NCBI RefSeq assembly: GCF_900215605.1 | Contig: NZ_OBEL01000001.1 | Coordinates: 1,302,001-1,366,000, forward strand | Source: Cohaesibacter gelatinilyticus | Lineage (GTDB): Bacteria; Pseudomonadota; Alphaproteobacteria; Rhizobiales; Cohaesibacteraceae | Direction of reading: 5' to 3' | Length of the DNA stretch: 64,000 nt | Part shown: positions 38,004 through 54,835 of the stretch, piece by piece | Position numbering within the stretch: the first letter of the stretch is position 1 | Layout: every line of letters begins with the position of its first letter | The notes under the pieces: generated by a model | What the model saw: the letters and a program-made list of their open reading frames with translations, nothing else | What the model was told of the DNA's origin: nothing | Database searches by the model: none | Position numbers and translations under genes: made by a program

Positions 38004-38699
38004 CTATGTTCTGGCTTTCTCAAAAGCTACCCAAGCTTGTTCGAATGCGGGGAAATCGAACCCATCCTGCTTTGCAGGGCCAAGCACAATCTGTTCATTC
38101 TCAAGCAGCGATTTGATTGCTTCCTCAAGAACAGGAAGCACATCTTCTGGGATTACCAAAGCACCATGCCTGTCTGCATGTACGAGTGCACCTGGTTGCA
38201 CCTTCAATTCGAAGATCTCGACTTCCGTACCCAGCTCCTTCACATGCACAAAGCCATGACTTGGACCAATTGAACCTGCGACGACCGGGAAGCCTTCAGG
38301 TAGGTCGCCGAGATCACGCATCACACCGTTGGTAAGGGCCCCTGACATACCAAAGCCTTTATGGACCGTTGTGTTGATTTCGCCCCAATAGGCACCAATG
38401 CAAACAGGAAAATCGACATCCTCGATCACCGCGATAGATGGTTTCGGTGCTTCAGCCATGGCCCGATAGTAGTTCATACGACGCTCACGGATGACTTCAG
38501 GTGCTTCTTCTGGCGGGTTCACTGCAGCGATTTTTGCAGTACAGGCATAACCAACGATGGCTGGTTCATCCGGGGCAGAGCACTGCATGGTGCCGCGAGT
38601 GAAATCTGAAAAGCCGCGTTTTCCTTGTGCAACTTCGATGGCATTGCAAACGGTCGGTGTATCAACCGATTTGAGAAGGTTTAGCAAGGAGTCATTCAT
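38004..38699 (-). CDS. RraA-like protein (HMG/oxaloacetate aldolase superfamily)
   Basis: A 231-residue RraA-family protein, last gene of the large minus-strand unit. The family's metal and substrate site is seen as GAYWGEINTTVHKGFGMSGALTNGVMRDLGDL (Arg and Asp of the RDL motif conserved), and the C-terminal PGALVHADRHGALVIPEDV is typical. Family members include 4-hydroxy-4-methyl-2-oxoglutarate aldolase and oxaloacetate decarboxylase as well as the RNase E inhibitor. In a catabolic operon the aldolase/decarboxylase role is the more likely. It follows the alpha/beta hydrolase gene by three bases. Confidence 0.85.
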   Translation of the reverse strand: MNDSLLNLLKSVDTPTVCNAIEVAQGKRGFSDFTRGTMQCSAPDEPAIVGYACTAKIAAVNPPEEAPEVIRERRMNYYRAMAEAPKPSIAVIEDVDFPVCIGAYWGEINTTVHKGFGMSGALTNGVMRDLGDLPEGFPVVAGSIGPSHGFVHVKELGTEVEIFELKVQPGALVHADRHGALVIPEDVLPVLEEAIKSLLENEQIVLGPAKQDGFDFPAFEQAWVAFEKART

Positions 38700-38702
38700 G
38701 TC

Positions 38703-39410
38703 TTATCTTTCCATCCAGCGCAGCAAGGCTTGATTGGTCTTGATGGGTTGTTCCAATGTTGGCAGATGCCCGGCCTGATCGATGATCTCCAATTGAGAAT
38801 TCTTCATAAGGTCATGCATCAATTCGTGCCGCTCGATAGGACACAGGAGGTCTTCCCGACCACACAAAATCAGGGCAGAGCAATCTGATGCAGCTAACAT
38901 ATCCTGTTGGTCAGGGCGGCTCTGAAGTGCCCGTGACTGCTTAACAAAGATTTCCGGGCCAAACTTGAGCGCCATATCCATGCAGAGATCCAGGATCTGA
39001 TCCCGTTGCGGGGTGTCGGCCAGATAATTCGGCTTCATTTCGTCCCGCATAACCTCACGAAGGCCTCCTGCTTGAACTTTGGTAATTTGCGGCTCCCGTT
39101 TTTGCTTCACATCTTCCAGTTCTGCTCTGGGGTTGGTATCCAACAGTGCTATTTTTTTAATCCGTTCAGGGGCTTGTCTTAGCATTTCCATTGCAACGAT
39201 TCCGCCCATGGAAAGTCCTGCGAGAGCAAATTCCGATGCTGAGGTCTCGGACAAAATATGGGCAGCTAGATCTTCTATCGTATCGCCTTCAATGAGGTTG
39301 GCGACATAAACTGGATAGCGATCCGCCAAGGCTTCAATTTGCGGACGAAACAACCGGGCATCACACATCATGCCCGGTATGAAAAGCAACGGAAGACTGG
39401 CTGAGCTCAC
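38703..39410 (-). CDS. Alpha/beta hydrolase
   Basis: A 235-residue alpha/beta hydrolase with oxyanion-hole region FIPGMMCD, nucleophile elbow GLSMGG (Ser near residue 67), acid in CGREDLLCP and His in AGHLPTLEQP, forming a full triad. The start overlaps the end of the MetE-like gene (ATGA at 39407-39410), so the two are translationally coupled. It probably hydrolyses an ester or lactone intermediate of the pathway; the substrate is unknown. Confidence 0.88.
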   Translation of the reverse strand: MSSASLPLLFIPGMMCDARLFRPQIEALADRYPVYVANLIEGDTIEDLAAHILSETSASEFALAGLSMGGIVAMEMLRQAPERIKKIALLDTNPRAELEDVKQKREPQITKVQAGGLREVMRDEMKPNYLADTPQRDQILDLCMDMALKFGPEIFVKQSRALQSRPDQQDMLAASDCSALILCGREDLLCPIERHELMHDLMKNSQLEIIDQAGHLPTLEQPIKTNQALLRWMER

Positions 39411-40540
39411 AAGCGCTCTCCGGCGAGGTCTGCCCCTTCACGCAGGCTCTTCAGCTTTGCATAAGCAATCTCTGGGTCGACTGCGCCATAACCCGCAAAG
39501 GTTCCAAAGCCGCAATCGGATCCGGCAATTACACGATCAGCACCGACAATATCGATAAAGCGCTCAAGTCTCTGCGCGACAAGCTCCGGATGCTCGACAA
39601 AATTGGTGGTCGTATCAACAACACCCGGAATGAGGATCTTGTCATCTGGAATTTCATTCTTGCGATCCCGGAAGACCGTCCATTCATGGGCATGGCGAGG
39701 GTTGGATGTTTCAAATAAAACGTAATGAGCCTTTGTTTTCATGAGCGTATTGAACACTTTATCCATGGAAATGTCGCAGACATGAGGACCTTCATAATTG
39801 CCCCAGCAAATGTGGACACGTACTTTTTCAGCCGGGATTTCCGAGAGGGCGAAGTTTAGTGCCTCGACATGCATATCAGCGATTTTGACGAACTCACGGT
39901 CAGAGAGGTCACTGAACAACATGTGACGAGAAAGCGCGAGATCCGGGCAATCAAGCTGCAAATTCAGCCCTGAGGCCACAATGGTCTCATATTCATCCTT
40001 CATTGCATGGGCGAGGGCGGAGAGATAAGAAGCCCGGCTTGCATAGAAATCATTTTGTAAAAAGAGAGAGATAACGCCGGGAGATGCCGCATTCATGAAG
40101 CCTTCCATGGCTCCATGCAAAGCCATGGCCGCTTTCAGATTGGCAATGTCCTTTTGCAGTTCGCCCTGTCCTTTGGACTTGACCTCATCGGTACACATGG
40201 GGCGGGCATAAGTAGGTGTGCCGCCATCACTCGCCAAACGCTCCAGAAAGGAAGGGAACATCTGAAGGTCCTGGGGTGCGTTTCGCGGGCTGTCACCAGA
40301 AAACCCGGTATAGCGATCTTTCACATAGGTCGCATAGGAAATCTTGGAGGTTTCACCATCACTGACGATATCGACACCTGCCTCTACCTGCTTTTTGACG
40401 GTCGCGCTAACTGCATCACTCATACAGCGATCAAAGGCTTCAGCATCGTAAGTTTTTCCTTGTTCGCGCGCAAAAATGAAATCCACGACGTCCTGAGTGC
40501 GCGGCAAAGAGCCGACATGACTTGTTTTGATGCGTGACAT
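39407..40540 (-). CDS. MetE C-domain-like zinc thiol/alkyl transferase (EaCoMT-like length)
   Basis: A 377-residue member of the cobalamin-independent methionine synthase C-terminal family. The N-terminus SHVGSLPRT matches the family opening. Zinc ligands are visible as His243-x-Cys245 (VRVHICWGNYEGPH) and Cys343 (GSDCGFGTF), with Glu277 (LFETSNPRH) a possible fourth. It lacks the MetE N-domain. Short stand-alone members include archaeal core MetE and epoxyalkane:coenzyme M transferase, which is also 377 residues. Catalysis should thus involve thiolate activation and C-S bond making or breaking on an operon-specific substrate. GGAGGGAG lies a little far upstream of the start. Confidence 0.85.
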   Translation of the reverse strand: MSRIKTSHVGSLPRTQDVVDFIFAREQGKTYDAEAFDRCMSDAVSATVKKQVEAGVDIVSDGETSKISYATYVKDRYTGFSGDSPRNAPQDLQMFPSFLERLASDGGTPTYARPMCTDEVKSKGQGELQKDIANLKAAMALHGAMEGFMNAASPGVISLFLQNDFYASRASYLSALAHAMKDEYETIVASGLNLQLDCPDLALSRHMLFSDLSDREFVKIADMHVEALNFALSEIPAEKVRVHICWGNYEGPHVCDISMDKVFNTLMKTKAHYVLFETSNPRHAHEWTVFRDRKNEIPDDKILIPGVVDTTTNFVEHPELVAQRLERFIDIVGADRVIAGSDCGFGTFAGYGAVDPEIAYAKLKSLREGADLAGERL

Positions 40541-40568
40541 TCCTGGTCTTCTCCCTCCAGATATTGCA

Positions 40569-40599
40569 CTCGGCCCCGGAACTCAGAACCGGGGCTGAG
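40569..40599 (-). terminator. Hairpin between the bicupin and MetE-like genes
   Basis: CTCGGCCCCGG (40569-40579) pairs with CCGGGGCTGAG (40589-40599), 11 bp with one G-U pair and a 9-base loop. It lies in the 71-base gap after the bicupin stop. No T tract, so more likely a processing or stability stem that separates distal genes of the unit. Function is inference. Confidence 0.45.
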
Positions 40600-40611
40600 C
40601 AAATATTATGA

Positions 40612-41577
40612 TTATCCTTGCCAGGTTGCTCCGGCGGGATCTTTAGTGTTCATCACACGGTACAGGCTGGCTTCTCCAGTCATGGATGGTGCGAGGCTAT
40701 GACGGAGCTGTGGTGGAATTGCACAGACATCTCCCGGTGCAAGGGTGGTCTCTCCACCTTCCCAAGTCAACTTCCAGTGTCCGCGCATGACCATGAGAAT
40801 TTCATAGCGATCAACACTGTAAGTCTCTTCAGAAATTGAACCTCGTGTAAGGAGTTCTACCTCAAATCCAGGCTTATCTTTCAGTAGGGCTTGTTCGCCG
40901 ATGACTTTACATGGTTCGTCGGCAGCCAAGGCCATCATATCCCAATAGCGACCGATATAATTGCGAACGACAGCACTGGTTGGGGCCTCGGCATAATCCT
41001 TGAGTTGCTCATCAGTCAGCAGTGGCATCGGCGAGACATTATGGGGGAGGCTTTCGCCTTTCTTGCTGTCATAAAGGACGCCATTCTCACCCAAAATCAG
41101 GCCATGATCTTTCGCATCTTCAATCACTTGCGGAGCCCAGGTCACGCCACCACCAGCATCATCACCGCCAAGGATGGACATGATCATGCCATAGTCGGTT
41201 CCGATATTCTCGAACCCGCGGAAAATTCCAGTTGGAATGTTGAAGATATCACCTTCTTCGCAAACAACTTCGCCTGCATTGCCCCAACGACCCCAGAAGA
41301 AACGCCAGCGACCTTTCAGAACAAAGAAGACTTCAGCTGTGGTGTGACTGTGCAGGCTGTTTCGGCACTTGGGAGGCTGGCCAGCCGCCCCAATATTGAA
41401 ACCAGGGGTGTCTGCAATATGAACATGCTGATCAGGGCTCTCAGATACGCCGCCACCAATGATGGTGAAGTTTTCTTTCTGATCAGATCCAGGCGTGTGG
41501 GCGTCGATAAAGGCTGTGCGGCATGGCTTCAAATCGCCATAGCGGACAATGCGCTTTTCCATTTCTTGAGGTGTCAT
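40612..41577 (-). CDS. Bicupin protein, gentisate-dioxygenase-like fold, one intact metal site
   Basis: A 321-residue protein with two cupin barrels. Domain 1 (about 60-150) keeps a metal-type pattern LHSHTTAEVFFVLKGRWRFFWG followed by GDIFNIPTGIFRGFEN. Domain 2 (about 225-310) has the barrel frame (YEILMVMRGHWKLTW, LAPGDVCAIPPQLRHSL) but lacks the paired histidines. It is tight behind the SnoaL-like gene (six bases) and belongs to the minus-strand unit. It could be a dioxygenase, isomerase or hydroxy-acid-modifying enzyme. Chemistry unknown. Confidence 0.82.
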   Translation of the reverse strand: MTPQEMEKRIVRYGDLKPCRTAFIDAHTPGSDQKENFTIIGGGVSESPDQHVHIADTPGFNIGAAGQPPKCRNSLHSHTTAEVFFVLKGRWRFFWGRWGNAGEVVCEEGDIFNIPTGIFRGFENIGTDYGMIMSILGGDDAGGGVTWAPQVIEDAKDHGLILGENGVLYDSKKGESLPHNVSPMPLLTDEQLKDYAEAPTSAVVRNYIGRYWDMMALAADEPCKVIGEQALLKDKPGFEVELLTRGSISEETYSVDRYEILMVMRGHWKLTWEGGETTLAPGDVCAIPPQLRHSLAPSMTGEASLYRVMNTKDPAGATWQG

Positions 41578-41583
41578 AACTTC

Positions 41584-42552
41584 TTACCCTGTTTTCAAAA
41601 TGATTTGTTTCCAAATGGACGTCTCGTCGAAGAGAGCGAATTCACGTCGCAGTCCCCATGGTCCAAATTCCGCATGACAGGCACCCATCACATAGACATC
41701 GGCCCCGGTCGGTGCTCCAAACATTCCCCAACCGTCATGTTTGCCGGTCAGGCTCCAACGTAGTGCTGCGCGTGGAGGCATCATCGGATCATCACGACCA
41801 ATCTGATGCTCGATTTTGAACTCGGCGTGAGGGAAGCTTGCACGCAGTCCCATCCAGAAAGCATCCACCGCATTGTGGGAATGATCTGAGACATCGCCTG
41901 CATATTCGACCTGACAACCGCGATCGTAGGCAGTCGGAATGACAGCAAGATCGGCATTCATGATACGGGTTAAAATATCAGCATATTTCGCGCCCCATTC
42001 ATTGTCGTTGCCCTTGCCTTTGTAAGGTCCGGGCTGATCGGTAGAGCGAGAAAGGGGACGAACGCAATTGTCTGGTCCGCCTTCGCGTTCAATCAGATCG
42101 CGAGCATAGTCGGCAGGGTTCCAGCCCATCTGACGCACGATGGCACCTTGATCCCGAATGAGCCATTCATCATTGATCTGATTGTTGATGGCATGGCAGT
42201 CGGCAATGATGCGATATCGCAACTTCTTACCAGTCGCTTTTCCAAATACACCGTCACCCAAGTGGGTTGCGGTAGAGAAGATACGGTGGGAGGACAGCAT
42301 GCCGTCTTCAGGAGAACCAGACCAGATAACATCCTCACCAAAGAGTGTGCGATCCGGAAACTCGTTCAAGGTAGCCATGGTGGCAGCAATCACGCCCTGA
42401 TTGCCGACGGAAACAGATCCCGGCATTCGAACGACAATGTCGGGAGCATAATAATCATGCAAGGTCGCGATGCCGCGATCTTCCCAGATTTCCTTCGTGA
42501 TCTTGATAATATAGTCTGGGAAATCCTTGAATTTGGGGTCAAATCCCTTCAT
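41584..42552 (-). CDS. SnoaL/NTF2-like protein A (two-domain, most divergent)
   Basis: A 322-residue protein with two predicted SnoaL-like (NTF2 fold) halves. The first has FPDYIIKITKEIWEDRGIATLHDYYAPDIVVRMPGSVSVGNQGV. The second has FWMGLRASFPHAEFKIEHQIGRDD and RWSLTGKHDGWGMFGAPTGADVYVMGACHAEFG. SnoaL-like proteins bind small hydrophobic or carboxylic ligands and some act as cyclases, isomerases or dehydratases. It is the first gene after the LacI gene (47-base gap) and clearly more distant from the other four SnoaL-like proteins of the cluster. Substrate unknown. Confidence 0.82.
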   Translation of the reverse strand: MKGFDPKFKDFPDYIIKITKEIWEDRGIATLHDYYAPDIVVRMPGSVSVGNQGVIAATMATLNEFPDRTLFGEDVIWSGSPEDGMLSSHRIFSTATHLGDGVFGKATGKKLRYRIIADCHAINNQINDEWLIRDQGAIVRQMGWNPADYARDLIEREGGPDNCVRPLSRSTDQPGPYKGKGNDNEWGAKYADILTRIMNADLAVIPTAYDRGCQVEYAGDVSDHSHNAVDAFWMGLRASFPHAEFKIEHQIGRDDPMMPPRAALRWSLTGKHDGWGMFGAPTGADVYVMGACHAEFGPWGLRREFALFDETSIWKQIILKTG

Positions 42553-42599: not shown

Positions 42600-43613
42600 T
42601 CAAGCATCTGCCTTTCGTGCTGACCCACGGATGATCAATGGACCATCAATGGCAACACGACGAACAGGTGAGGCTGGATCTTCGATCCGGGAGAGCAGGG
42701 TGGTAACGGTCTCGGTAACCATGCGATTTGCAGGTTGGCGTACGGTGGTCAGATCGTAGCTAGGCCAGGAAGCAAGCGTCACGTCATCATAGCCAACAAC
42801 GGATACATCTTGTGGTATGCGCAGGCCGAGTTCGAAACGCAGCACGTCCATCACGGCGAAAGCCATATGATCGTTGGCAACGAAGACGGCGTCAGGTCGG
42901 TCTTCGCAATCAAAGAGAGTTCTTGCAGCTTGCTGAGCTAGCTCATAACGAAAATTGCCTTCCGCTCGGGCAAACAAGGTTTGGCCGGTTTCTGCAAGAC
43001 CTGCGATGAAACCAGCTTCGCGATCTCGCTGGGTGGAGGCACCTTCCCAACCGGCAATATGAGCGATCTTCTTGTGTCCGGCTTTTATCAGAAATTCTGC
43101 CAGTTTTCGGCCGCCAGCAAAGTTGTCTGAGCTGACACCTGAAAGGCGGTCGTCATCCTGCTGACGGTTGAATAGTACAATGGGAATGCCTGCCGCTTCA
43201 CAACGAGCGGTCAGATCATTGGACATCCCGACCGATGCAGTAATGATGCCATCAACCTGATAGTCCAGCAGCTCATCAATCACGTCCTGAGTGGCTTCGC
43301 TATCATTGGAGGCCATGAAGACCAGAACATGATAGCCATGCTGTTGTAGCTCATTGGAAAGTTTCTCGATTGCTTCCGGATAGAACTGGTTCTCCAGATA
43401 AGCGACGACGAGACCAATGATCCGGCTTTTGCCAGTAATGAGTGAGCGCGCAAGAACATTCGGGCGATAACCAAGTTCTGCCGCTGCAGCGCGAACTTTA
43501 TCCGCCGTTTTCTTGGAAACGCTTGCACCGGGTGTGAACACGCGCGACACAGCCGACTGGCTGACGCCTGCGAGCTTTGCGACCTGAGTGCTGGTGACTT
43601 TTTCGGAACTCAT
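42600..43613 (-). CDS. LacI-family transcriptional repressor of the cluster
   Basis: A 337-residue LacI/GalR repressor. Helix-turn-helix: TSTQVAKLAGVSQSAVSRVFTPGASVSKKTADKVRAAAAELGYRPN; hinge helix NVLARSLITGKS with the Leu that inserts at a central CpG step. The ligand domain (61-337) is of the PBP type (IGLVVAYLENQFYPEAIEKL, DGIITASVG, PDAVFVANDHMAFAVMDVL). It lies inside the minus-strand operon, its start overlapping the SDR stop (ATGA), hence would be self-regulated. Two operator-like palindromes with central CG lie at 51817-51892. Confidence 0.93.
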   Translation of the reverse strand: MSSEKVTSTQVAKLAGVSQSAVSRVFTPGASVSKKTADKVRAAAAELGYRPNVLARSLITGKSRIIGLVVAYLENQFYPEAIEKLSNELQQHGYHVLVFMASNDSEATQDVIDELLDYQVDGIITASVGMSNDLTARCEAAGIPIVLFNRQQDDDRLSGVSSDNFAGGRKLAEFLIKAGHKKIAHIAGWEGASTQRDREAGFIAGLAETGQTLFARAEGNFRYELAQQAARTLFDCEDRPDAVFVANDHMAFAVMDVLRFELGLRIPQDVSVVGYDDVTLASWPSYDLTTVRQPANRMVTETVTTLLSRIEDPASPVRRVAIDGPLIIRGSARKADA

Positions 43614-44374
43614 TCTGCTGTCCAGCCTCCGTCAATCATCAGTGCAGTACCTGTCACCATGGCAGACGCATCAGAGGCCAGAAACAGAACTGCGCCCATC
43701 ATGTCTTCGACTTCGGCAACCCGTCCAAGTTTGATCTTCTCCGTAATCCATTTGACCTTATCAGGCTGATCGAAAGTGGGTGCCGTCAAAGGCGTGCGAA
43801 CAAAGGTTGGGCAGACGGTATTGACCCGAATTTGCTTTGGTCCAAATTCAATGGCCATGGCTTTGGTAAAGCCTTCAACCGCATGCTTGGTTGCACAATA
43901 GACGGCCCGATCGATGCCCCCGACATGTCCCATTTGGGAGGAAATATTGATGAGGGAACCCGGTTTGCCAGCATCAATCAGGCCTTTGGCGACAGCTTGG
44001 GTCAGGAAATAGGCGCCTTTGATGTTCAGATCCGTGACTGCATCAAAGTCTTCCGTGGTTGTGTCAGTTGTCGCGGAATGTCGCGCCAAACCGGCACTAT
44101 TGACCAGAATGTCGAACGGCCCCAGTTCCGAAATCTGCGCTTTGGATGCTTCTACGTCGGATACATCCATGCTTACCGCATTTGCGGTCCAGCCCTTGGC
44201 TTTCATGGCTTCCACTGCATCGCTCAATTTTCCCAATGAGCGCGCAGCAAGGGTAACCTCTGCGCCTGCTTCAGCCAAGGCGGCTGCGGAAGCTAAGCCA
44301 ATACCAGAAGAGGCACCGGCAACAAGGGCTTTTCTGCCATTAAGTCGGAAAGAGGGAGTTTGGGGTAAGATCAT
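43610..44374 (-). CDS. Short-chain dehydrogenase/reductase
   Basis: A 254-residue classical SDR. Cofactor motif VAGASSGIGLASAAALAEAG; NSAG; active site Ser-Tyr-Lys as ISSQMGHVG and YCATKHA; C-terminal PTFVRTPLTAP and LMIDGGWTAE. The arginine-like residue after the cofactor motif (LAARSLGKL) favours NADP(H) but is not decisive. It overlaps the LacI gene at its 3' end and touches the SnoaL-like B gene at its 5' end. It probably oxidises or reduces a hydroxy intermediate of the pathway. Confidence 0.92.
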   Translation of the reverse strand: MILPQTPSFRLNGRKALVAGASSGIGLASAAALAEAGAEVTLAARSLGKLSDAVEAMKAKGWTANAVSMDVSDVEASKAQISELGPFDILVNSAGLARHSATTDTTTEDFDAVTDLNIKGAYFLTQAVAKGLIDAGKPGSLINISSQMGHVGGIDRAVYCATKHAVEGFTKAMAIEFGPKQIRVNTVCPTFVRTPLTAPTFDQPDKVKWITEKIKLGRVAEVEDMMGAVLFLASDASAMVTGTALMIDGGWTAE

Positions 44375-45429
44375 TATGGGGCCTTTCCTGTCTCATGATC
44401 AAATCCGGGACGCGATTTATTAAACTCACGCAGACGCGCAAATACATCGACTCCGATTTGATCATACATGTGCAGAAGGTCGACAAGCACCCAATTCTCG
44501 CGAATTTTTCCGTTTTCCAAACGCCAGAAGTCGAGACTCCGTAGGGAGATTTTTTTATCCATAGGAGCAATGCCCAGCCAGCCACCAGCTGAAATGGTCT
44601 GAGCCATATTTGGCCAGCCCGTTACAGCCGCGTAATTTTGGTCTCCAAAGAAGTGATGAGTGACTTCATCCGGATATTGCCCGCGATCAGGCATGGCAGC
44701 GAGAAACGGGATCTGATGCCAATTGCGAAACCCCTGAATGCCGCGAGCAGTTCCGATTCCAGCCGGCCCATACCAATTCATCTTCTCGTGCCAGAAGCGA
44801 TCAAGCTGCATGACCTCCGGGCCACCTGTTGAGGGATACAGAGAGAGGTGCTTGAGCATATCGACGATATGCGCGCAGGTTTTTCGGCCCTGTTCAACGT
44901 CGTATGGCCCCGGAACCAAACCATCCTGTGTTGCTGGGCCAGGAACATGCCATTCCCGCGCCAAACTGGGTGATAATGGCCAAGCCTGAGCCTGCATCAT
45001 GACTTCCGGAATATCCCAAATAGCTTGGACTTCTACAATCTGCTCATTTTCGAACCGATAGAATTCATGAAAGCGCATTGAAATTTGATGCCCAGTGGCT
45101 GGAATATTCAGCCAAGGATTAGTGAAGGTGCCTGTATGATAACCGCCACATCCAATCCAATCGGCTCCATCATCTTCTGATCCAGCCATGACGATATAAT
45201 CACGTCGTTCCAGATCGGGCAGAGCCGTAAGCAATGGGGCATAGACAGTATTATAGAAAGCATCCGGTCCGTTCAGATCCCCGAACGGATGGCACATATG
45301 AAATACCGCGTCAGGATGCATGAGTTTTTTGAGCTCATCACGCACATCTTGTTCGGTAAAGTCATATTGAGCAGCTCTCAAGGGAGAGAGGAGAGCTTTA
45401 TGCCGACTATGTTGATCCATAAAATCCAT
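44374..45429 (-). CDS. SnoaL/NTF2-like protein B (two-domain)
   Basis: A 351-residue protein with tandem NTF2-fold halves. The first (about 25-150) has MHPDAVFHMCHPFGDLNGPDAFYNTVYAPLLTALPDLERRDYI and MRFHEFYRFENEQIVEVQAIWD. The second (about 210-330) has FWHEKMNWYGPAGIGTARGIQGFRNWHQIPFLAAMPDR and LRSLDFWRLENGKIRENWVLVDLLHMYDQIGVDVFARL. It is clearly paralogous to proteins D and E of the plus unit. The stop and the SDR start share a base. Possibly an isomerase, dehydratase or ligand carrier; function unknown. Confidence 0.85.
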   Translation of the reverse strand: MDFMDQHSRHKALLSPLRAAQYDFTEQDVRDELKKLMHPDAVFHMCHPFGDLNGPDAFYNTVYAPLLTALPDLERRDYIVMAGSEDDGADWIGCGGYHTGTFTNPWLNIPATGHQISMRFHEFYRFENEQIVEVQAIWDIPEVMMQAQAWPLSPSLAREWHVPGPATQDGLVPGPYDVEQGRKTCAHIVDMLKHLSLYPSTGGPEVMQLDRFWHEKMNWYGPAGIGTARGIQGFRNWHQIPFLAAMPDRGQYPDEVTHHFFGDQNYAAVTGWPNMAQTISAGGWLGIAPMDKKISLRSLDFWRLENGKIRENWVLVDLLHMYDQIGVDVFARLREFNKSRPGFDHETGKAP

Positions 45430-47358: not shown

Positions 47359-48240
47359 TTAACCCTTGACTGCACCAGCAGTCAGACCACTGACGATCTG
47401 TCGTTGGAAAAACAGAACCAGAATGAAGAGCGGAACTGTTGCTGAGACCACTGCAGCAACCGCGAACATCACATTGCCTTCGGTATAGGTGGTGCCGAGA
47501 TAGGCTGCGATTTCAGGAACCATGGTCCGGTTCTGTTCGCTCAACAGCATCGAGGTTACTGCAAAATCATTGTAGGCGAGCAGGAAGCTGAACAGACCTG
47601 TGGTGATAACGCCTGGCCACATCACCGGGATAATGACATGACGGAAGGCTTGGAACTGACTGCAGCCATCCACCTTGGCGCTTTCGTCGAGCTCTTTCGG
47701 GATCTTCTGGAAGAAGGAATGCAGCATCCAGAGAGTGAAAGGCTGATTGATAGCAACCAGAACAATGATGGTGGTTGGCAAAATACCCCATACATTCCAC
47801 TCGAAGAATGGCAGCAAATAACCAGACACCAGAGTGATTGGAGGCATCGCGCGGAAAATGAGCGCGGCAATCAGCAGCCACACGGTGTAACGGTACGAGG
47901 ATCGAGACAATGCATATCCGCCAAGTGTTCCAATGGTCAAGGACGTGCAGACCACGAAGAAACACACGATGAGCGTGTTGATCGCATGCTTCCAGAATTC
48001 CTCCTGAACCCACGAACCGTAATAGCCGGCATCGGTGAAGGCACTGCCATGAGCAGCTTTAGTTCTTTCGCCGGTAAGGGCATAAGTCCAATCGGCGATG
48101 GAGAAGAAATCAAGCTCGACCTTGAAGGACCCCCACAGCGTCCAAAGGAATGGAAAGGCTGCAAGTACGAACCAGACGATGATGAACCCGTTGATGAGAA
48201 GTTTCAAAGACAGCGGGCGTTGTTGGGCTTTCACAGTCAT
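47359..48240 (-). CDS. CUT1-type ABC transporter permease (MalG-like)
   Basis: A 293-residue permease with six membrane segments and the EAA loop KELDESAKVDGCSQFQAFRHVIIPVMWPG facing the ATPase. The pattern is of the MalG/carbohydrate uptake class 1 group. I prefer the ATG at 48240, which leaves a four-base gap after the first permease gene; the longer frame from 48267 overlaps that gene by 23 bases. Partner of the permease, binding protein and ATPase genes upstream. Confidence 0.9.
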   Translation of the reverse strand: MTVKAQQRPLSLKLLINGFIIVWFVLAAFPFLWTLWGSFKVELDFFSIADWTYALTGERTKAAHGSAFTDAGYYGSWVQEEFWKHAINTLIVCFFVVCTSLTIGTLGGYALSRSSYRYTVWLLIAALIFRAMPPITLVSGYLLPFFEWNVWGILPTTIIVLVAINQPFTLWMLHSFFQKIPKELDESAKVDGCSQFQAFRHVIIPVMWPGVITTGLFSFLLAYNDFAVTSMLLSEQNRTMVPEIAAYLGTTYTEGNVMFAVAAVVSATVPLFILVLFFQRQIVSGLTAGAVKG

Positions 48241-48244
48241 GATC

Positions 48245-49273
48245 TTAGCTCTTCGCGTTAAAGTCACGCCAGGTGCGGATAAGCACCGGCGTCAAAAGAA
48301 TGGCCACACCGAGGATGGTCAAAACGGAGGAAGCAGAAGCTGCAGACAGCTGACGTGTTTCGCCACCCAGATCATTGAAGATGATCCAGCTCAAGCTTGT
48401 TGCATGGGCCGAGGCATTGAAGCCGACGATTGGTTCGAATATCCGGAAATTATCCATCAGCTGGATCAGAGCTACGAACGTAACCAGTGGCATCAGGTGA
48501 GGGATGACGACATATTTCACGCGCTGCCAACGGGTGGCACCATCAATCATGGCGCTTTCAATCTGGTCCTGCGGCAGGGTCTGAAGACCTGCATAAAAAA
48601 CGACAAAAGCGAAGGGAGCTGCGTGCCAGACGCCATAGATGATCAGCATGACCCAGGTCAGGCCAGTCGAAGCCTTCATGGAAAAGTCAGGGTCACCAGC
48701 AAGTGCCACCAAAGCAGATCCTACAACACCACGGCTATCTACCATCCAGAACAGGATCAGAGAGCCGATCAACGGAGTGACGATCATCGGCAACAGGGAG
48801 AAGAAGATCATCAGCCCCTTGAGATGCCGGTGTAGGGAATTGACTGCCAAGGCAATCATCAATCCAAAGATGATGAGCAATGGAGTGACCAGAAAGGTGA
48901 AAGTCAGGGTAAAGCTCAGTGCACGATAAAGCGGCAAATTATGAACTTTCGAAATGAAATCACCCATACTGTCGGTTGCTTGCCAGGCAGTAGCGATTTC
49001 ATTGACGGCAAGATGGCCACGGTCGAGATAGATATCGAGCCCTACAAAGCGACCCAAAGGCTGATTGGAACGCAGTTCTGCGGTGGCATCATGATCAACT
49101 TGTGTCTCCGTAGTGCAACCGACCAATGGCGTGCAACTCTCAACTTCAACCAGAACAGCCTCATGAGGTGCAAAAATCGACTGCAGAAACACAGAAACGA
49201 TTGGCATTGCGATGAACAAAAGCATCGCCGCCGCCGTTGGGAAAAAGAACCAGAAGAATGTACGATGTCGCAT
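48245..49273 (-). CDS. CUT1-type ABC transporter permease (MalF-like)
   Basis: A 342-residue permease. An N-terminal membrane helix is followed by a long periplasmic loop of about 90 residues, with two cysteines (ESCTPLVGCTTETQ), and then the six-helix core. The EAA loop is DQIESAMIDGATRWQRVKYVVIPHLMPL. This topology with a large first loop is MalF-like. It lies after the binding-protein gene with a gap of 139 bases. Confidence 0.9.
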   Translation of the reverse strand: MRHRTFFWFFFPTAAAMLLFIAMPIVSVFLQSIFAPHEAVLVEVESCTPLVGCTTETQVDHDATAELRSNQPLGRFVGLDIYLDRGHLAVNEIATAWQATDSMGDFISKVHNLPLYRALSFTLTFTFLVTPLLIIFGLMIALAVNSLHRHLKGLMIFFSLLPMIVTPLIGSLILFWMVDSRGVVGSALVALAGDPDFSMKASTGLTWVMLIIYGVWHAAPFAFVVFYAGLQTLPQDQIESAMIDGATRWQRVKYVVIPHLMPLVTFVALIQLMDNFRIFEPIVGFNASAHATSLSWIIFNDLGGETRQLSAASASSVLTILGVAILLTPVLIRTWRDFNAKS

Positions 49274-49412: not shown

Positions 49413-50648
49413 CTAGTTCAGGAAGCCCTTTTCCTTGGCGGCTGCAGTGTAGGCTGCCTCGACATCTTTCAAGGTCTGCTCGGCGCTTTCTTTGCCCTGC
49501 AGGAAATCAGCCAGTTCGCCACCCAAAGCAGTATGCATCAGGCCCATGTAGGGCACCATCGGATAGGAAACTGTGCCGGCCTTGGCGGCATCGAAGACAC
49601 CTGTCGCTGTCTCAGACGGCTCATAGCCCTTGATCAACCAAACAGCCTGTTTAGCCACTTCCGTGTCATTCATGAGCTCTGGACGAATACCATTCATCAT
49701 GGCAATGAAAGTAGATTCTGCTTCTGCATCAGAGATGTTTTTGGCAATGGTCCAGCCATCCCACCAAAGAGTTGAGGCGGGAATGGAACCACCTCCAACG
49801 GTCATTGGGCCGGCAATCGCATGGCCTTTCTTCACAGCATCCGTCACACCATCAGTCGTGGTCTGAGTGGCTGCACGGCTGCCCCACATGTTCAGCAAGG
49901 CCACATTGCCCGCTCGATATTCGGCATTGGTAGCGTTGGAATCATGGGTCAGATAATCCGGGTTCATGTATTCGGTCAGTGCCTTCATCATGGTCAGCGC
50001 CTTGACACCGGCTTCAGTGTTCACATTGGGTTCGGCACTGCCTTTTTTGAAGTGTGAGCCACCATAGCCCAGGAACATGTTGTTGAATTCCTGAGCGAGG
50101 TTCCAGCCAGCAGCATAAGCACCACCGATTGGGTTTTTCATGACGCCTTTTTCGCGAATGACTTTCGCTGCGGCCAGCATGTCTTCATAGGTCTTTGGAA
50201 CCTCAAGGCCAAGATCTGCAAGCACATCCTTGCGATACATCAGGTGCTGAGCATTCGCCATGAAAGCAACAGCCATTACTTTGCCATCAATCTTTATGAG
50301 CTGAGACGGCTGAAGATCTTTGCCATATTTTGCGACAAGACCATCCAGAGGACGGATCAGGTCTTCATTCATCAAGGCAACAATCGTGCTGTTGGCGATG
50401 ATGGCAGAGGTATATTCTGCTGGATTACCCTGCATACCGGGAACCTGAATATTCTTGTGATCGGCGGTGAGGTTCTTTTTCACCTCGGCGCCTTTGCATT
50501 CAGCGGCTCCTGCACCAACGGTCTGAATGGCAGGGAACTCATTGCCAATAATGCTCACCCGAGCACCAATTTCACACGCTGCGTTGGCACTGGTGGTTGC
50601 TGCTGCCAGTGCAAATACACTTGCCAGGGCTAATTGCTTCAAATTCAT
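49413..50648 (-). CDS. Family 1 extracellular solute-binding protein (CUT1-type)
   Basis: A 411-residue periplasmic binding protein. It has a Sec signal peptide cut after ALAAATTSANA, a family 1 fold (PAEYTSAIIANSTIVALMNEDLIRPLDGLVAKYG, VMAVAFMANAQHLMYRKDVLADLGLEVPKTYEDMLAAAKVI, NVALLNMWGSRAA) and a helical C-terminus. Two cysteines near the mature N-terminus (Cys25 and Cys51) may form a disulfide. Substrates of this class are sugars, polyols, glycosides and related polyhydroxy compounds; this gives the only hint to the nature of the pathway's substrate. Confidence 0.9.
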   Translation of the reverse strand: MNLKQLALASVFALAAATTSANAACEIGARVSIIGNEFPAIQTVGAGAAECKGAEVKKNLTADHKNIQVPGMQGNPAEYTSAIIANSTIVALMNEDLIRPLDGLVAKYGKDLQPSQLIKIDGKVMAVAFMANAQHLMYRKDVLADLGLEVPKTYEDMLAAAKVIREKGVMKNPIGGAYAAGWNLAQEFNNMFLGYGGSHFKKGSAEPNVNTEAGVKALTMMKALTEYMNPDYLTHDSNATNAEYRAGNVALLNMWGSRAATQTTTDGVTDAVKKGHAIAGPMTVGGGSIPASTLWWDGWTIAKNISDAEAESTFIAMMNGIRPELMNDTEVAKQAVWLIKGYEPSETATGVFDAAKAGTVSYPMVPYMGLMHTALGGELADFLQGKESAEQTLKDVEAAYTAAAKEKGFLN

Positions 50649-50736: not shown

Positions 50737-51786
50737 TTAGGCTTCAAGACGTGCGCCTGTTTGCGCATCGAATAAGTGACAATCTTTTGCCGGAATTTTC
50801 AGTGAGACTTGCTCACCAATTTCGGCTCGATAGGACTTGTCCGCTTTCACCGCGACCAACTGTCCACCAATGCGAACTGTGACCATGGTGGCATCGCCAA
50901 GCAGTTCGAGCGTATAGATAGGGGCATTCACCTCGCCGTCTGAATCTACCGTGCTGGCATCTTCTGCGCGAAAGCCAAGTGTGACTTTACCATCCGGTGC
51001 TGAAAGTCCGGATATCTCGACATTCTCGGCGCGGAAGGTTCCGTTCTGAATTTCGCCTTCCATCAGGTTCATGGCCGGGGAGCCGATGAAACTGGCAACG
51101 AAAGTGTTTGCCGGGTTGTCGTAAATCTCCGTGGGGCTACCGACTTGCTGGATGACACCACCCTTCATCACCACAACCCGGTCGGCCAATGTCATGGCTT
51201 CGATCTGGTCATGGGTCACATAGATGGTGGTTGCTTCCAGATCATGGGTCAGGTTCTTGATCTGAGCCCGAGTGGACACCCGCAATTTCGCATCGAGGTT
51301 GGACAGTGGCTCATCCATAAGGAAAACTTTGGGCTTGCGCACAATGGCGCGTGCCAATGCAACACGCTGTCTCTGACCACCCGATAGAGCAGCGGGTTTG
51401 CGATCCAGAAACTCATTCAGTTCCACACGCGCAGCAGCTTGCATGACCCGTTCGTGATGTGATGCTGGATCAATGCCACGAACCTTCAGGGGAAAGCGAA
51501 TATTCTCATAGACATTCATGTTGGGATAGAGGGCATAGCTCTGGAACACCATTGCCACTTCTCTATCCTTTGGTTCCTTGTCATTGACCTGCTCGCCATC
51601 AATCAGGATCTCTCCTTCGCTGGCGTCTTCCAGTCCTGCAATCATCCGCATTGTGGTGGTTTTGCCACAGCCGGAAGGACCGAGAAGCACAAGGAACTCC
51701 TTGTCTGCAATGGTGAGGTCAAAGTTGTGAACCCCTACAAAGGATCCCCAACGTTTTGTGACGTCGCGCAATCTGATTTCAGCCAT
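50737..51786 (-). CDS. CUT1-type ABC transporter ATPase (MalK/UgpC-like)
   Basis: A 349-residue ATPase: Walker A GPSGCGKTTT, Q-loop MVFQSYALYPNMNVYENI, signature LSGGQRQRVALARAIVRKPKVFLMDEPLSNLDAKLR, H-loop YVTHDQIEAMTLADRVVVMKGG and a C-terminal TOBE/regulatory domain from about residue 235. It is the first gene of the 14-gene minus-strand unit, starting 30 bases from the nearer operator. Putting the ATPase first and the binding protein second is unusual for CUT1 operons. Confidence 0.93.
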   Translation of the reverse strand: MAEIRLRDVTKRWGSFVGVHNFDLTIADKEFLVLLGPSGCGKTTTMRMIAGLEDASEGEILIDGEQVNDKEPKDREVAMVFQSYALYPNMNVYENIRFPLKVRGIDPASHHERVMQAAARVELNEFLDRKPAALSGGQRQRVALARAIVRKPKVFLMDEPLSNLDAKLRVSTRAQIKNLTHDLEATTIYVTHDQIEAMTLADRVVVMKGGVIQQVGSPTEIYDNPANTFVASFIGSPAMNLMEGEIQNGTFRAENVEISGLSAPDGKVTLGFRAEDASTVDSDGEVNAPIYTLELLGDATMVTVRIGGQLVAVKADKSYRAEIGEQVSLKIPAKDCHLFDAQTGARLEA

Positions 51787-51816: not shown

Positions 51817-51836
51817 TTTTGCATACGAATGCAAAA
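51817..51836. promoter_or_regulatory. LacI-type operator O1
   Basis: TTTTGCATACGAATGCAAAA: nine of ten half-site positions are symmetrical about a central CpG, as in operators of LacI-family repressors with a hinge-helix Leu. It adjoins the -10 of the minus-strand promoter. Shares TTTTGCA..ACG..TGCAAAA with O2. Confidence 0.82.
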
Positions 51837-51892: not shown

Positions 51893-51911
51893 ATTTCAGA
51901 AAGCAGACTTC

Positions 51912-52898
51912 ATGACCGATCAACGTGCATTCATTCGCCAAGGCCTAATGGATCTTTTTTCAGCTTCGGATGGGCAAGAAAAAGCATTGATAAATAAGTA
52001 TTTTTCCAGATCTTGCGTTTTTGATATTTCAGCGCCGGTCGGTCAATTTACAAGCCATGAAGAAATCAGTGAAAAATTTTTCCAACCGTTGAAAAATGCG
52101 CTGTCTCACGTTCATCGGCGCGATGAAATCTTTATCGGTGGAGACAATAGACGCTCCAATGGTGGCTACTGGATTTCCTGTTTGACCCATTATGTAGGCA
52201 ATTTTAATCGGTCATTATGGGGGGTGAAGCCGAGCAATCATCTTGTCTTTTTGCGTTCTGGAGAATTCTACCGGGTTGAAAATGGTAAGATTGTCGAAGC
52301 CAAGCTGATCATCGATTTTCTTGATCTGATGCGTCAGGCAGGTCGTTTTCCGTTGCCTTCCAAACTTGGCACGGAAATGCTGTTTCCAGGTCCGGCGACC
52401 CATGATGGTGTCTTGCCCATGGCTTCAGAGTTGAGCGAGAGTTCGCTTAACGTCGTCGAAGCCATGCTAGGCGATCTGCATGTCTTCAATCCCGATACAT
52501 TCACATCAAAAGGCCAAACCGGCGATGATGGCTACTGGCATGATGACATGCTCTGGTATGGACCGGGTGGAATTGGTTCTAACTTCCGCTGGGAAGGGTT
52601 TCATCAAGACCACCGGGCGCCATTCTTGACAGCCTTTCCGGACAGGAAGGGCGGCGACCACTACTGCCGGATTGGTGATGGCAATTACGCGGCTGTCAGC
52701 GGATGGCCCTCCATGACCATGACGCATAAGGGAGATTATCTTGGCATCAAGGCCACCAATAAACCACTGACTTTGCGCGTTATGGATTTTTATCGCTGTC
52801 ATACGGGCAAAATCGCCGAAAACTGGGTCTGCCTTGATTATGTCGATCTCTTCTCTCAGATGGGAGTGGATTTGATCAAAGAAGCGGCCAATCTCTAG
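51912..52898 (+). CDS. SnoaL/NTF2-like protein D (two-domain)
   Basis: A 328-residue protein with two NTF2-fold halves. The first has LINKYFSRSCVFDISAPVGQFTSHEEISEKFFQPLKNALSHVHRRDE and HLVFLRSGEFYRVENGKIVEAKLIIDFLDLMRQAGRFPLP. The second has MLWYGPGGIGSNFRWEGFHQDHRAPFLTAFPDRKGGDHYCRIGDGNYAAVSGWPSM and LRVMDFYRCHTGKIAENWVCLDYVDLFSQMGVDL. I placed the start at 51912, since the frame's first ATG (51786) would run through both operators. First gene of the plus-strand unit; protein E follows after 19 bases. Confidence 0.86.
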   Translation: MTDQRAFIRQGLMDLFSASDGQEKALINKYFSRSCVFDISAPVGQFTSHEEISEKFFQPLKNALSHVHRRDEIFIGGDNRRSNGGYWISCLTHYVGNFNRSLWGVKPSNHLVFLRSGEFYRVENGKIVEAKLIIDFLDLMRQAGRFPLPSKLGTEMLFPGPATHDGVLPMASELSESSLNVVEAMLGDLHVFNPDTFTSKGQTGDDGYWHDDMLWYGPGGIGSNFRWEGFHQDHRAPFLTAFPDRKGGDHYCRIGDGNYAAVSGWPSMTMTHKGDYLGIKATNKPLTLRVMDFYRCHTGKIAENWVCLDYVDLFSQMGVDLIKEAANL

Positions 52899-52917
52899 AT
52901 TATCGGAAAAGAATACA

Positions 52918-53955
52918 ATGACACCTTCAGAGGCCAAAAGCACATTCTTCAAAAAACTGAAGCAATTTGCCAAGGATGGCGATCCGGCAAACCTTTATCA
53001 CGAGAATGCAGATTGGTTTGGGTCGCATCCCTTCAATGAAATCAAAGGGCATTCGGCAATTGTTGATGTTTGGAAGACAATAACGAACGCAATTCCAGAC
53101 ATGGAGAGGCGTGATAGCATATTTGTTGCAGGTCATAGCAAACCAGATGTTCGTATGCCGGATGGGTTTACCGATCGTTTGCTCATTGCAAGTCTTGGGA
53201 CTTATCAAGGCACATTCGAAAAGGATCTGCTTCATATTCCTGCCACTCATGGTGTTGTCCATTTACGCTTCTGCGAGGTACATCACATCAAGGATGGATT
53301 GATCGAGCATTCCTATGTCATGCTGGATTTTCTGGATTTGATGCGACAGGCTGGTGTTTGGCCGATCCCGGCTTCATTGGGAGCGGAACATGTTTGGCCA
53401 ACGCCTGCCAGTATGGATGGCGTGAGGCCTGAGATTTGTGATGAGAAAGCCGGAGATCAGGCTTTTGATGTCGTGATGGGCATGCATGCGGCATTGCTGT
53501 CATTTGATGGAGTGGATCTGGACAGCATGAAGCATTCGAAATTCTGGGACGAACACTTCATGTGGTATGGCCCATCCGGTATTGGTAGCACCAGAGCAAT
53601 GTCTGGCTTCAGAGCTCACCATCAAATTCCATTTCTCACTGGTTTTCCTGACCGAAAAGGGGCAGGGCACTATATCCGAATTGGTGACGGAAACTATGTT
53701 GTGACGGGTGGTTGGCCATCTGTTGTTGGTACCCATACCGGTGAATGGTTGGGCATGCCGGCGACTGGCAAAATCATCGATATGCGTGTCATGGATTTCT
53801 ATCGCATAGAAAACGGCAAGATTTGCGAGAATTGGGTTCCAATAGATGTCATCCATATGCTGAAGCAAATGGGTTTTGATGTCTTCAAACGTCTGAAGCA
53901 TTTGAGAGGTCTGCCTGAAAGAAACCTGACGTCAGCGAAAGCCGGAGGATACTGA
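52918..53955 (+). CDS. SnoaL/NTF2-like protein E (two-domain)
   Basis: A 345-residue paralogue of protein D. The first half: NLYHENADWFGSHPFNEIKGHSAIVDVWKTITNAIPDMERRD, LLHIPATHGVVHLRFCEVHHIKDGLIEHSYVMLDFLDLMRQAGVWPIP. The second: HFMWYGPSGIGSTRAMSGFRAHHQIPFLTGFPDRKGAGHYIRIGDGNYVVTGGWPSVVGTHTGEWLGMPATGKIIDMRVMDFYRIENGKICENWVPIDVIHMLKQMGFDVF. The stop and the next gene's ATG are two bases apart. Function unknown; likely acts with B and D on related intermediates or as a hetero-oligomer. Confidence 0.86.
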   Translation: MTPSEAKSTFFKKLKQFAKDGDPANLYHENADWFGSHPFNEIKGHSAIVDVWKTITNAIPDMERRDSIFVAGHSKPDVRMPDGFTDRLLIASLGTYQGTFEKDLLHIPATHGVVHLRFCEVHHIKDGLIEHSYVMLDFLDLMRQAGVWPIPASLGAEHVWPTPASMDGVRPEICDEKAGDQAFDVVMGMHAALLSFDGVDLDSMKHSKFWDEHFMWYGPSGIGSTRAMSGFRAHHQIPFLTGFPDRKGAGHYIRIGDGNYVVTGGWPSVVGTHTGEWLGMPATGKIIDMRVMDFYRIENGKICENWVPIDVIHMLKQMGFDVFKRLKHLRGLPERNLTSAKAGGY

Positions 53956-53956
53956 A

Positions 53957-54835
53957 ATGAGTATTGATGCTCACCATCATCTGTGGGACTTGCAGGCTGT
54001 TCATTATCCATGGCTTATGGAAACGGGAAAGCCGCGTTTTTTCGGAGATCCATCCTCTATTCAGCGCAATTACCTTCTGGATGAATTTCGTGCCGATGCC
54101 GAGCGCCAGGGAATAGGTGCATCTGTCCATATTCAGGTCGGAGCCGCTGATGCCATGCAAGAGGCTAAGTGGGTGCAGTCTGTTGCAGACGACAATCCAG
54201 ATTGGCCATTGGTTCAAGTGGTGTTCTGCGATCTCAGCACTGAAGACGTGGTGAGACAACTGCAAGCATTCTCGAAAATGAGTTCGGTGCGAGGCGTGCG
54301 TCAGATCATTGGTCGAGCACCAGGAGAAGATAGCCAGTCCGGCACTCGCCAATTGTTGGATAATTCTTCCTTTCTCGAAGGTTTGAAGGCGACAGCAGAT
54401 CTAGGTTTGGGTTTTGATCTGCAATTGCTGCCTGACTATATGGACGCAACCGCCGAAGTGCTGGCGCAAGTACCGGACCTGAAGGTCGCTCTTTGTCATG
54501 CGGGATCTCCATATGACCGGTCTGAAGAGGGATTGAAGAACTGGACCAAACAGATGGAGTGTCTCTCCGCTCTTCCAAATGTCTATTGCAAACTATCTGG
54601 TCTCGGGATGTTTGATCATGATTGGACTATTCAAGGCATTCGTCCGATTGTCGAGGCCTGCATCGGCCAGTTCGGGGCCAACAGATGCATGTTCGGCTCC
54701 AACTTCCCGGTTGATAGCCTGAGTTCAAGTTATGATAAGATCGTAAAGGCTTATGAGGAACTGATCCCCAGCAAATACCATTTAGATATCTTCAAGAGCA
54801 CCGCTCAGGGATTTTACGCGTTCAATTTCAACTAG
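53957..54835 (+). CDS. COG3618-type amidohydrolase / sugar lactonase
   Basis: A 292-residue TIM-barrel amidohydrolase of the amidohydrolase-2 family. It opens with DAHHHLWDL (HxH metal motif), has DLQLLPDYMD and VALCHAGSP (His), CKLSGLG, and ends with the FGSNFPVD motif carrying the catalytic Asp. The DAHHHLWD opening is characteristic of L-fucono-, rhamnono- and related lactonases. This suggests that the pathway forms a lactone of an oxidised polyhydroxy compound. Last gene of the plus unit, after SnoaL-like E. Confidence 0.88.
   Translation: MSIDAHHHLWDLQAVHYPWLMETGKPRFFGDPSSIQRNYLLDEFRADAERQGIGASVHIQVGAADAMQEAKWVQSVADDNPDWPLVQVVFCDLSTEDVVRQLQAFSKMSSVRGVRQIIGRAPGEDSQSGTRQLLDNSSFLEGLKATADLGLGFDLQLLPDYMDATAEVLAQVPDLKVALCHAGSPYDRSEEGLKNWTKQMECLSALPNVYCKLSGLGMFDHDWTIQGIRPIVEACIGQFGANRCMFGSNFPVDSLSSSYDKIVKAYEELIPSKYHLDIFKSTAQGFYAFNFN

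Follow-up and report, generated by a model that had tools for sequence, protein, structure and literature searches.

The window, a 64,000-nucleotide stretch of the Cohaesibacter gelatinilyticus genome (contig NZ_OBEL01000001.1, positions 1,302,001 to 1,366,000 of the forward strand), harbors at 38004-54835 a cluster of 17 genes in two divergent units, which, judged by gene content, conservation and a shared predicted operator, very probably constitutes a LacI-controlled modular catabolic regulon. All 17 open reading frames (ORFs) proposed in a first-pass annotation were recovered at the positions it implied, 14 on the minus strand (51786 down to 38004) and three on the plus strand (51912-54835). 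Pfam assigned families to all 17 proteins, in agreement with those named there: a CUT1-type importer, five SnoaL proteins, a HisD-like dehydrogenase, a short-chain dehydrogenase/reductase (SDR), a bicupin, a MetE-like protein, an alpha/beta hydrolase, an RraA-like protein, a lactonase and a LacI regulator. Four of the SnoaL/SnoaL_2 proteins are two-domain forms (322-351 residues after start correction) and one is a single-domain form (177 residues). The start of Sno4 was moved: the TTG-initiated ORF at 51786 is probably over-long, and the ATG at 51912, taken from the translation, is the likely start, since two operators fall between 51786 and 51912. The features are as follows.

38004-38699, minus strand: RraA-like protein, proposed class II pyruvate-type aldolase/decarboxylase, core module (PF03737, E 1.3e-15)
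38703-39410, minus strand: alpha/beta hydrolase, PcaD-like, proposed esterase, core module (PF00561)
39407-40540, minus strand: MetE-II-like protein, peripheral (PF01717)
40612-41577, minus strand: bicupin, proposed O2-dependent cleavage enzyme, core module (PF07883/PF02311)
41584-42552, minus strand: Sno1, two-domain SnoaL-like protein (PF07366/PF12680)
42600-43613, minus strand: LacI-family regulator (PF00356, PF13377)
43610-44374, minus strand: SDR dehydrogenase/reductase (PF13561)
44374-45429, minus strand: Sno2, two-domain SnoaL-like protein (PF07366)
45444-46751, minus strand: HisD-like dehydrogenase, separate subfamily, motif G-K-F-P-M (PF00815)
46811-47344, minus strand: Sno3, one-domain SnoaL-like protein, anchor of the genome scan (PF07366)
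47359-48267, minus strand: permease B of the CUT1-type importer (PF00528)
48245-49273, minus strand: permease A of the CUT1-type importer (PF00528)
49413-50648, minus strand: solute-binding protein of the importer (PF01547)
50737-51786, minus strand: importer ATPase (PF00005, OB_MalK, TOBE_2)
51817-51836, no strand: predicted operator 1, a 20-base palindrome, TTTTGCATACGAATGCAAAA
51873-51892, no strand: predicted operator 2, a 20-base palindrome, TTTTGCAGACGTATGCAAAA
51912-52898, plus strand: Sno4, two-domain SnoaL-like protein (PF07366, two stretches)
52918-53955, plus strand: Sno5, two-domain SnoaL-like protein, optional (PF07366, two stretches)
53957-54835, plus strand: Amidohydro_2 (COG3618-type) lactonase, optional (PF04909)

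A genome scan with a Sno3 alignment as query returned at least 527 relatives, of which the best 80 were kept; loci of at least 20,000 bases provided 63 neighbourhoods (17 of the 80 were dropped), a sample biased towards close relatives, and the identity cut-offs behind the gene counts, here and for the 27 cupin-anchored loci below, are of our own choosing. The importer genes recur (ABC ATPase 59, permease B 57, permease A and solute-binding protein 56 each), together with the regulator and the dehydrogenases (LacI 57, HisD 53, SDR 49), the other SnoaL genes (Sno1 56, Sno4 50, Sno2 49, Sno5 10) and the remaining enzymes (cupin 49, MetE 47, RraA and hydrolase 40 each, lactonase 19). The complete 14-gene minus-strand unit is present in 25 of the 63 and one identical 16-gene-type order in 12, and some neighbourhoods carry just one or two of the genes. 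The lactonase and Sno5 are optional members. Carriers among the best 80 include Rhodobacteraceae, Roseibium, Planktomarina, Granulosicoccus, Leucothrix, Vibrio and an Acidimicrobiales metagenome-assembled genome (MAG); the closest match among those listed is a Cohaesibacter MAG (97% in Sno3). Largely the same gene order was found in Ruegeria sp. THAF33, Ruegeria conchae, Octadecabacter arcticus and Paracoccus alcaliphilus, and a tblastn search of plasmids placed Sno2 relatives in 25 records. The system is widespread, being common to many Roseobacter-group and other marine bacteria and to some soil and plant bacteria. Among 297 genomes drawn from the order, Sno2 was detected at E <= 1e-30 in 14, the window's genome included, and in none of the 10 other genomes of the same genus; the cluster was therefore probably gained sideways. 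Four genomes of one sister genus (G021, G067, G103 and G134) hold Sno3, Sno2 and Sno1 side by side with no HisD, SDR or LacI gene between them (the G134 contig stops at Sno1), and carry HisD, SDR and a LacI gene (50-52% identity) as a separate locus. The co-occurrence that the first-pass annotation had put forward for checking is thus seen from the SnoaL anchor (63 loci) as well as from the cupin anchor (27 loci), which shows joint conservation of the regulon genes.

The divergent promoter contains a palindromic operator of the type TTTGCATACGTATGCAAA. Allowing one mismatch, the pattern TTTGCANNCGNNTGCAAA was matched by 52 of the 63 loci, against 0.2 loci on average and 2 at most for 40 dyad-shuffled patterns, and the window sites account for four matches (both strands of both sites) against 0.04 expected. 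Of 79 sites in all, 70 precede the importer ATPase or binding-protein gene, and the gap between Sno3 and HisD holds four of the remaining nine. An earlier, strict count of the pattern in divergent gaps had matched 39 of 61 loci and failed in 22; there the ORF starts were over-extended by the caller and the gap was sometimes negative, and the count was repeated on whole loci to give the 52 of 63. A copy also precedes the separate HisD gene in two of the four sister-genus genomes (TTTGCAAGCGTATGCAAT in G067, CTTGCATGCGTATGCAGT in G021), sites occur in genomes of another class (L245-L247), and looser matches, for which no control was run, lie before the Sinorhizobium medicae binding-protein gene and in Deinococcus. 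The cluster genes, which the first reading had taken for a regulon, are thus apparently co-regulated through a shared operator, and the LacI protein of the cluster is its presumable binder. A LacI gene, a sugar-type importer and a palindromic site in the divergent promoter are all present, as in LacI-regulated CUT1-type catabolic operons, in support of the importer-plus-enzymes regulon that had been proposed. A chance neighbourhood is ruled out by the co-conservation and the operator; polyketide biosynthesis, suggested by the SnoaL family, was rejected as well, as no synthase is found among the 17 genes and the importer and LacI point to catabolism. Promoter and terminator scans gave no more matches than shuffled sequence.

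Operator-like sites were also noted elsewhere. In the window's own genome, TTTGCACTCGTGTGCAAA and TATGCACACGCGTGCAAT (G000:C1:103611-103628; locus L176, 9577-9628) stand before another importer operon, which includes a glycerophosphodiester phosphodiesterase gene and its own LacI-like gene. A mismatch-free copy in G067 (L170, G067:C2:104001-124000, at 9547) precedes a peptide-type importer and a family 38 glycosidase gene.

The cupin, used as second anchor, was found in 53 plasmid records and in 24 of 398 genomes of the phylum, the window's genome included. The set examined comprises 27 loci in 23 genomes, with the window excluded and genes counted within 9 kb of the cupin, a radius that is uninformative for the importer and the lactonase, both of which lie further off in the window; some genomes belong to both the SnoaL- and the cupin-anchored sets. 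LacI was recognised in 21 of these loci, HisD in 18, SDR in 17 and the hydrolase in at least 16 (a lower bound, the hydrolase of L241 being recognised by Pfam only), next to any SnoaL in 19, MetE in 11 and otnK in 2. An aldolase slot is filled by either RraA or HpcH in 21 of the 27, and by both together in one, suggesting that the two aldolases are largely interchangeable. HisD and otnK never coincide in the 27 loci, otnK being found in just two. From these patterns, the central module likely consists of the cupin, the alpha/beta hydrolase and an RraA or HpcH aldolase, usually with the HisD-like enzyme, SDR and LacI, and the SnoaLs, the MetE-like protein, lactonase, amidase and importers would form a variable periphery.

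Individual loci illustrate this architecture. In Klebsiella michiganensis the cupin and HpcH stand with LacI, HisD, SDR, the hydrolase and an MFS importer, in a stretch that matches neither SnoaL nor MetE, and the cupin/hydrolase/aldolase core likewise occurs with no MetE-like or lactonase match in the Paracoccus alcaliphilus, Sinorhizobium medicae and K. michiganensis stretches. Lactone opening and a thiol-dependent step, which the first-pass annotation had written into the pathway, would hence not be central; of its interpretation the regulon, the co-conservation and, as far as the operator sequence goes, the co-regulation are supported, and these two steps as written are not. The recognised genes of L241 encode a TRAP importer, cupin, HpcH and hydrolase, and both TRAP and MFS importers thus also stand beside related cores. 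In Thioclava, Vibrio pelagius, L242 and L243, cupin and HpcH are followed by otnK, otnC and otnI, with no HisD or SDR; the otn names rest on similarity only in L242 and L243, and on genes annotated as otnK, aldolase, otnI or TIM barrel protein in Thioclava and V. pelagius, where a hydrolase is also annotated beside the core. In some genomes, therefore, genes for tetronate catabolism by OtnK/OtnC/OtnI follow this cupin-HpcH core; they are however missing from the window's cluster, where HisD and SDR take their place. Cupin, hydrolase and aldolase may accordingly perform the central job, with two alternative routes for the remaining fragment. V. pelagius carries an otn-type core and a SnoaL-plus-importer cluster on one plasmid. 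Its SnoaL genes adjoin sarcosine oxidase and purU genes (serine ammonia-lyase in one of two records), a set that may simply form a common glycine betaine cluster and is given no weight here as evidence. A related system on a plasmid of Deinococcus sp. KNUC1210 (L192) has two hisD genes, three "ester cyclase" genes, an importer, a cupin, an HpcH-type aldolase, LacI, SDR and operator-like sites. None of 5426 Escherichia coli genomes held 80% of the Klebsiella-type stretch; a short match was present in 2040, lying in hisD among the matches listed. The genes around several loci (aminotransferases, kinases, GH38, flagellar, phosphate and others) indicate no single substrate.

The nearest solved structures to the HisD-like protein are HpsN enzymes, (R)-2,3-dihydroxypropane-1-sulfonate (DHPS) 3-dehydrogenases (PDB 8v35, 8wwe). 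They share the HisD fold family, the zinc ligands (Gln, two His and Asp) and the catalytic residues with their Glu-His pair (Q250, H253, E318, H319, D352, K353, H359 and H412 are all kept in the window protein) and the Lys that touches the sulfonate; on the other hand, HpsN His126 is replaced by Met or Leu, the tree branch is separate and the gene company differs. PMC11382572 gives G-R-Y-A/S-H as the diagnostic HpsN motif, with His126 contacting the sulfonate, and G-S-A-P-L as that of HisD. Our sequences instead display G-K-F/Y-P-M (12 of 12, and at least 97% per position in 74 sequences), and G-S-A-P-L fits neither the window protein nor four HisD of the same order. The replacement of His126 by Met with Lys353 kept is as expected for an enzyme that would act on a related, non-sulfonate substrate. 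With true histidinol dehydrogenase the window protein shares the Histidinol_dh domain and a TIGR00069 score above the cut-off (438.7 against 243.8 bits), but it has Lys for Tyr at 353 and a different loop motif, the four same-order HisD featuring G-[TL]-A-x-Y and Tyr at 353. A 39-row tree, given without support values, in which a single gene of the window's genome appears as two rows (L166, L177) and two further rows are partial (L245, L247), separates true HisD, HpsN, the core HisD-like group and a further group, HisD2. The cluster enzyme thus appears to group with neither histidinol dehydrogenase nor HpsN, and the HisD family gains further branches beside these two. The window's genome has a separate true HisD gene elsewhere (38-39% identity to the cluster protein) as well as an HpsN-type DHPS dehydrogenase gene (G000:C7:80272-81531; GRYSH, 47% identical), which an SDR-like ORF adjoins. 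Genes of the HisD2 group lie close to SnoaL-family genes in Novosphingobium, a Rhodobacteraceae MAG (L084) and three genomes of another class; an amidase accompanies those of Novosphingobium, and in Roseibium an amidase stands beside a second hisD that was left out of the tree. In L171 (G145:C1:2205001-2225000, at 8932-16441), a core-type HisD-like gene (86%) was observed with a LacI-like gene and a CUT2-like sugar importer.

The cupin residues His76, His78, Glu82 and Arg120 are invariant in 38 of 38 sequences, the window's included. Its predicted model (mean pLDDT, the predicted local distance difference test, 80.4; residues 19-53 poor) is nearest by Foldseek to quercetin and salicylate dioxygenases and oxalate decarboxylases, quercetin dioxygenase being best. 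The RraA-like protein largely keeps an LTNGVMRDL segment across 41 sequences and failed the LigK/CHA aldolase model (21.6 bits against a cut-off of 304.5), and the hydrolase keeps GLSMGG, D and GH segments in 46 sequences and failed TIGR02427 (PcaD, 3-oxoadipate enol-lactonase; 81.6 against 255.85). The MetE-II-like protein failed the methionine synthase models (best 94.7 against 406) and retains HIC, LFE and SDC segments in 62 sequences, which we take to be the HxC, E and C ligands of the MetE zinc site. As in the window, where it shares its cluster with NTF2-like proteins, MetE-II relatives in three sphingomonads (L181, L182 and L186) pair with a small NTF2-family gene, followed by an IclR regulator, with folate one-carbon genes (methylene-tetrahydrofolate reductase, purU, aminomethyltransferase-type) nearby; LigAB lies near two of the three, in one of them together with LigK and 4-oxalomesaconate tautomerase. 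This context hints at methyl or methoxy chemistry. The best NCBIfam model for the SDR is KduD (199 bits, below the cut-off of 338.85), and the lactonase failed the L-fucono-1,5-lactonase model (101.7 against 400), with 4dlf as best PDB match. An AlphaFold2 model of Sno2 (mean pLDDT 89.1) resembles polyether epoxide hydrolases and polyketide cyclases, a likeness that is not enough to assign a function. Queried against the PDB, the cupin, RraA, MetE and SnoaL proteins returned weak matches only, and the importer binding protein hit a range of sugar-binding proteins (best E 9.2e-10).

Taken as a whole, the explanation that we tentatively prefer is a LacI-controlled modular regulon in which a mycosporine- or gadusol-type cyclohexenone would be cleaved oxidatively and converted to pyruvate and malate. 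Beta-diketone cleavage is a reaction of cupin dioxygenases such as Dke1, RraA- and HpcH-type aldolases act on 4-hydroxy-2-oxo acids to give pyruvate, and OtnK, OtnC and OtnI convert 2- or 3-oxo-tetronate to dihydroxyacetone phosphate; 4-deoxygadusol and gadusol are methoxy-cyclohexenones whose tertiary alcohol bears a CH2OH group. The imported compound would be trimmed by the SnoaLs to a cyclic vinylogous acid (a beta-diketone), for example 4-deoxygadusol, the core of mycosporine-like amino acids. The cupin would use O2 to cut the diketone beside the methoxy-bearing carbon, yielding an alpha-keto methyl ester, from which the alpha/beta hydrolase would take off the methyl group. The resulting tertiary-alcohol 2-oxo-4-hydroxy acid would be split by the aldolase into pyruvate and, from 4-deoxygadusol, 4-hydroxy-3-oxobutanoate. 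The SDR may reduce this product to 3,4-dihydroxybutanoate, which is to DHPS, the substrate of HpsN, its carboxylate analogue; oxidation of the CH2OH of 3,4-dihydroxybutanoate by the HisD-like enzyme would then give malate. In clusters without HisD and SDR, the extra ring hydroxyl of gadusol would lead to pyruvate and 3-oxo-tetronate, the OtnK substrate, the latter passing via OtnK and OtnC to dihydroxyacetone phosphate. SnoaLs, amidase and HisD2 could strip amino-acid side chains, and the variants with an amidase and a second HisD-like gene (Novosphingobium, Roseibium) would fit mycosporine-glutaminol. The proposed route would explain every core gene as well as both alternative endings. This order of reactions is possible but provisional. 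As the substrate, a mycosporine- or gadusol-type compound is somewhat unlikely, and it is similarly doubtful that the cluster is the missing route by which bacteria consume mycosporine-like amino acids and gadusol, which serve as sunscreens in algae, cyanobacteria, fungi and fish eggs; were it so, the route would return widespread algal and fungal sunscreens to the carbon and nitrogen cycles.

A number of observations weigh against this explanation. The cupin does not have a standard Dke1- or quercetinase-type site, because the usual third metal His is an invariant Arg: in those enzymes the position of Arg120 is usually a further metal His (the motif-2 His), and the metal-ligand test returned H, H and E with Arg at this position. 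The two-cupin fold and the HxH...E motif of the first domain are shared with the bicupin quercetin and salicylate 1,2-dioxygenases, whereas the Arg and an identity of about 15% set the window cupin apart, and the fold match is weak (template modelling score about 0.46, root-mean-square deviation about 10 A). The cupin is missing from 14 and HisD from 10 of the 63 neighbourhoods, HisD from nine of the 27 cupin-anchored loci, and L233 shows the cupin alone. No mycosporine-specific genes were recognised, no search aimed at them having been made, and the roles proposed for the five SnoaLs and MetE are guesses. Loci with just one HisD can carry the amidase too (S. medicae, L246), and the L171 stretch has no cupin or SnoaL match, with PdxA and aldehyde dehydrogenase genes nearby. 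In a survey of 12 carrier genomes allowing one mismatch, no operator was found at the cluster in G103, G134 and G283, nor anywhere in the genome of G103. Finally, the CUT1 importer is typical of sugars, PfkB and FGGY kinase, galactarate dehydratase and UxuA genes lie near some clusters, and relatives occur in plant-associated rhizobia.

The last points lead to the main rival, in which the substrate would be a modified (O-methylated or C-branched) sugar, cyclitol or sugar acid; this is a real possibility that falls short of even. Here the SnoaLs would act as isomerases or dehydratases, HisD would oxidise CH2OH to COOH, the SDR would provide a keto acid, the aldolase would release pyruvate and MetE would remove or accept a methyl group. 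Next to the importer type, the LacI family, an SDR nearest KduD and a lactonase nearest L-fucono-1,5-lactonase argue for it, as do a GMC oxidoreductase in eight loci by similarity (four of them Pfam-checked), the tetronate genes of some clusters and the rhizobial carriers. We keep this alternative in consideration because sugar kinase and sugar-acid dehydratase genes lie near some clusters and a CUT2-like importer stands beside a core HisD; the polyhydroxy import substrate named by the first-pass annotation is possible. However, the 17 conserved gene types include no sugar kinase, glycosidase or classical sugar-acid dehydratase, ordinary sugar acids need no dioxygenase-type cupin, and TRAP and MFS importers are also seen. 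If the substrate is a sugar, the route would still be an apparently undescribed one, and the operator motif is usable to find the regulon elsewhere. Ring cleavage of a methoxylated aromatic or pyrone, parallel to the Lig pathway (protocatechuate 4,5-cleavage) with a LigI-like lactonase and a LigK-like aldolase, is improbable. The RraA and COG3618 families include LigK and LigI, so that the window aldolase and lactonase belong to the same broad families, the sphingomonad MetE-II relatives lie near LigAB (two) and near aminomethyltransferase-family and folate one-carbon genes (three), and a cupin core occurs near an intradiol dioxygenase in R. wittichii RW1. The window proteins nevertheless fall below the curated cut-offs (RraA 21.6 bits on the LigK model against 304.5), the lactonase, optional at 19 of 63, matches the fuconolactonase model and 4dlf, the 17 genes include no extradiol dioxygenase, and HisD and the sugar-type importer would be left unexplained.

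Ascorbate-type breakdown is more improbable still: the cupin would cut a reductone, the hydrolase would open an oxalyl ester and tetronate would pass to HisD/SDR or OtnK/OtnC/OtnI. Such a scheme would suit the tetronate genes beside cupin cores, and a vinylogous acid the TRAP importers observed, yet the conserved aldolase would have no use, and neither an oxalate gene nor a tetronate 2-dehydrogenase appears in the two annotated tetronate stretches, the gene tables of which are incomplete. Sulfonate (DHPS) catabolism with the HisD-like enzyme as HpsN, favored by the nearest solved structures, is refuted in the main and hardly credible, given G-K-F/Y-P-M in place of G-R-Y-A/S-H and the HpsN-type copy (47%, GRYSH) elsewhere in the same genome. 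Concerning novelty, the first-pass annotation knew of no described pathway with this combination, and none was found among the top-ranked matches of open-access literature searches, nor any description of the cluster or of a mycosporine-breakdown gene set, subscription papers being mostly outside this scope. As far as could be seen, the system is thus new as a pathway and built from known enzyme families.

The cluster is bordered by a tRNA-Ser(TGA) gene at 37516-37605. Integration at this tRNA was rejected, with no second copy of the tRNA 3' end and no integration scar within the window. Downstream of the lactonase, at 54946-55467, an ORF without Pfam match encodes 173 residues including a GxSxGG stretch.

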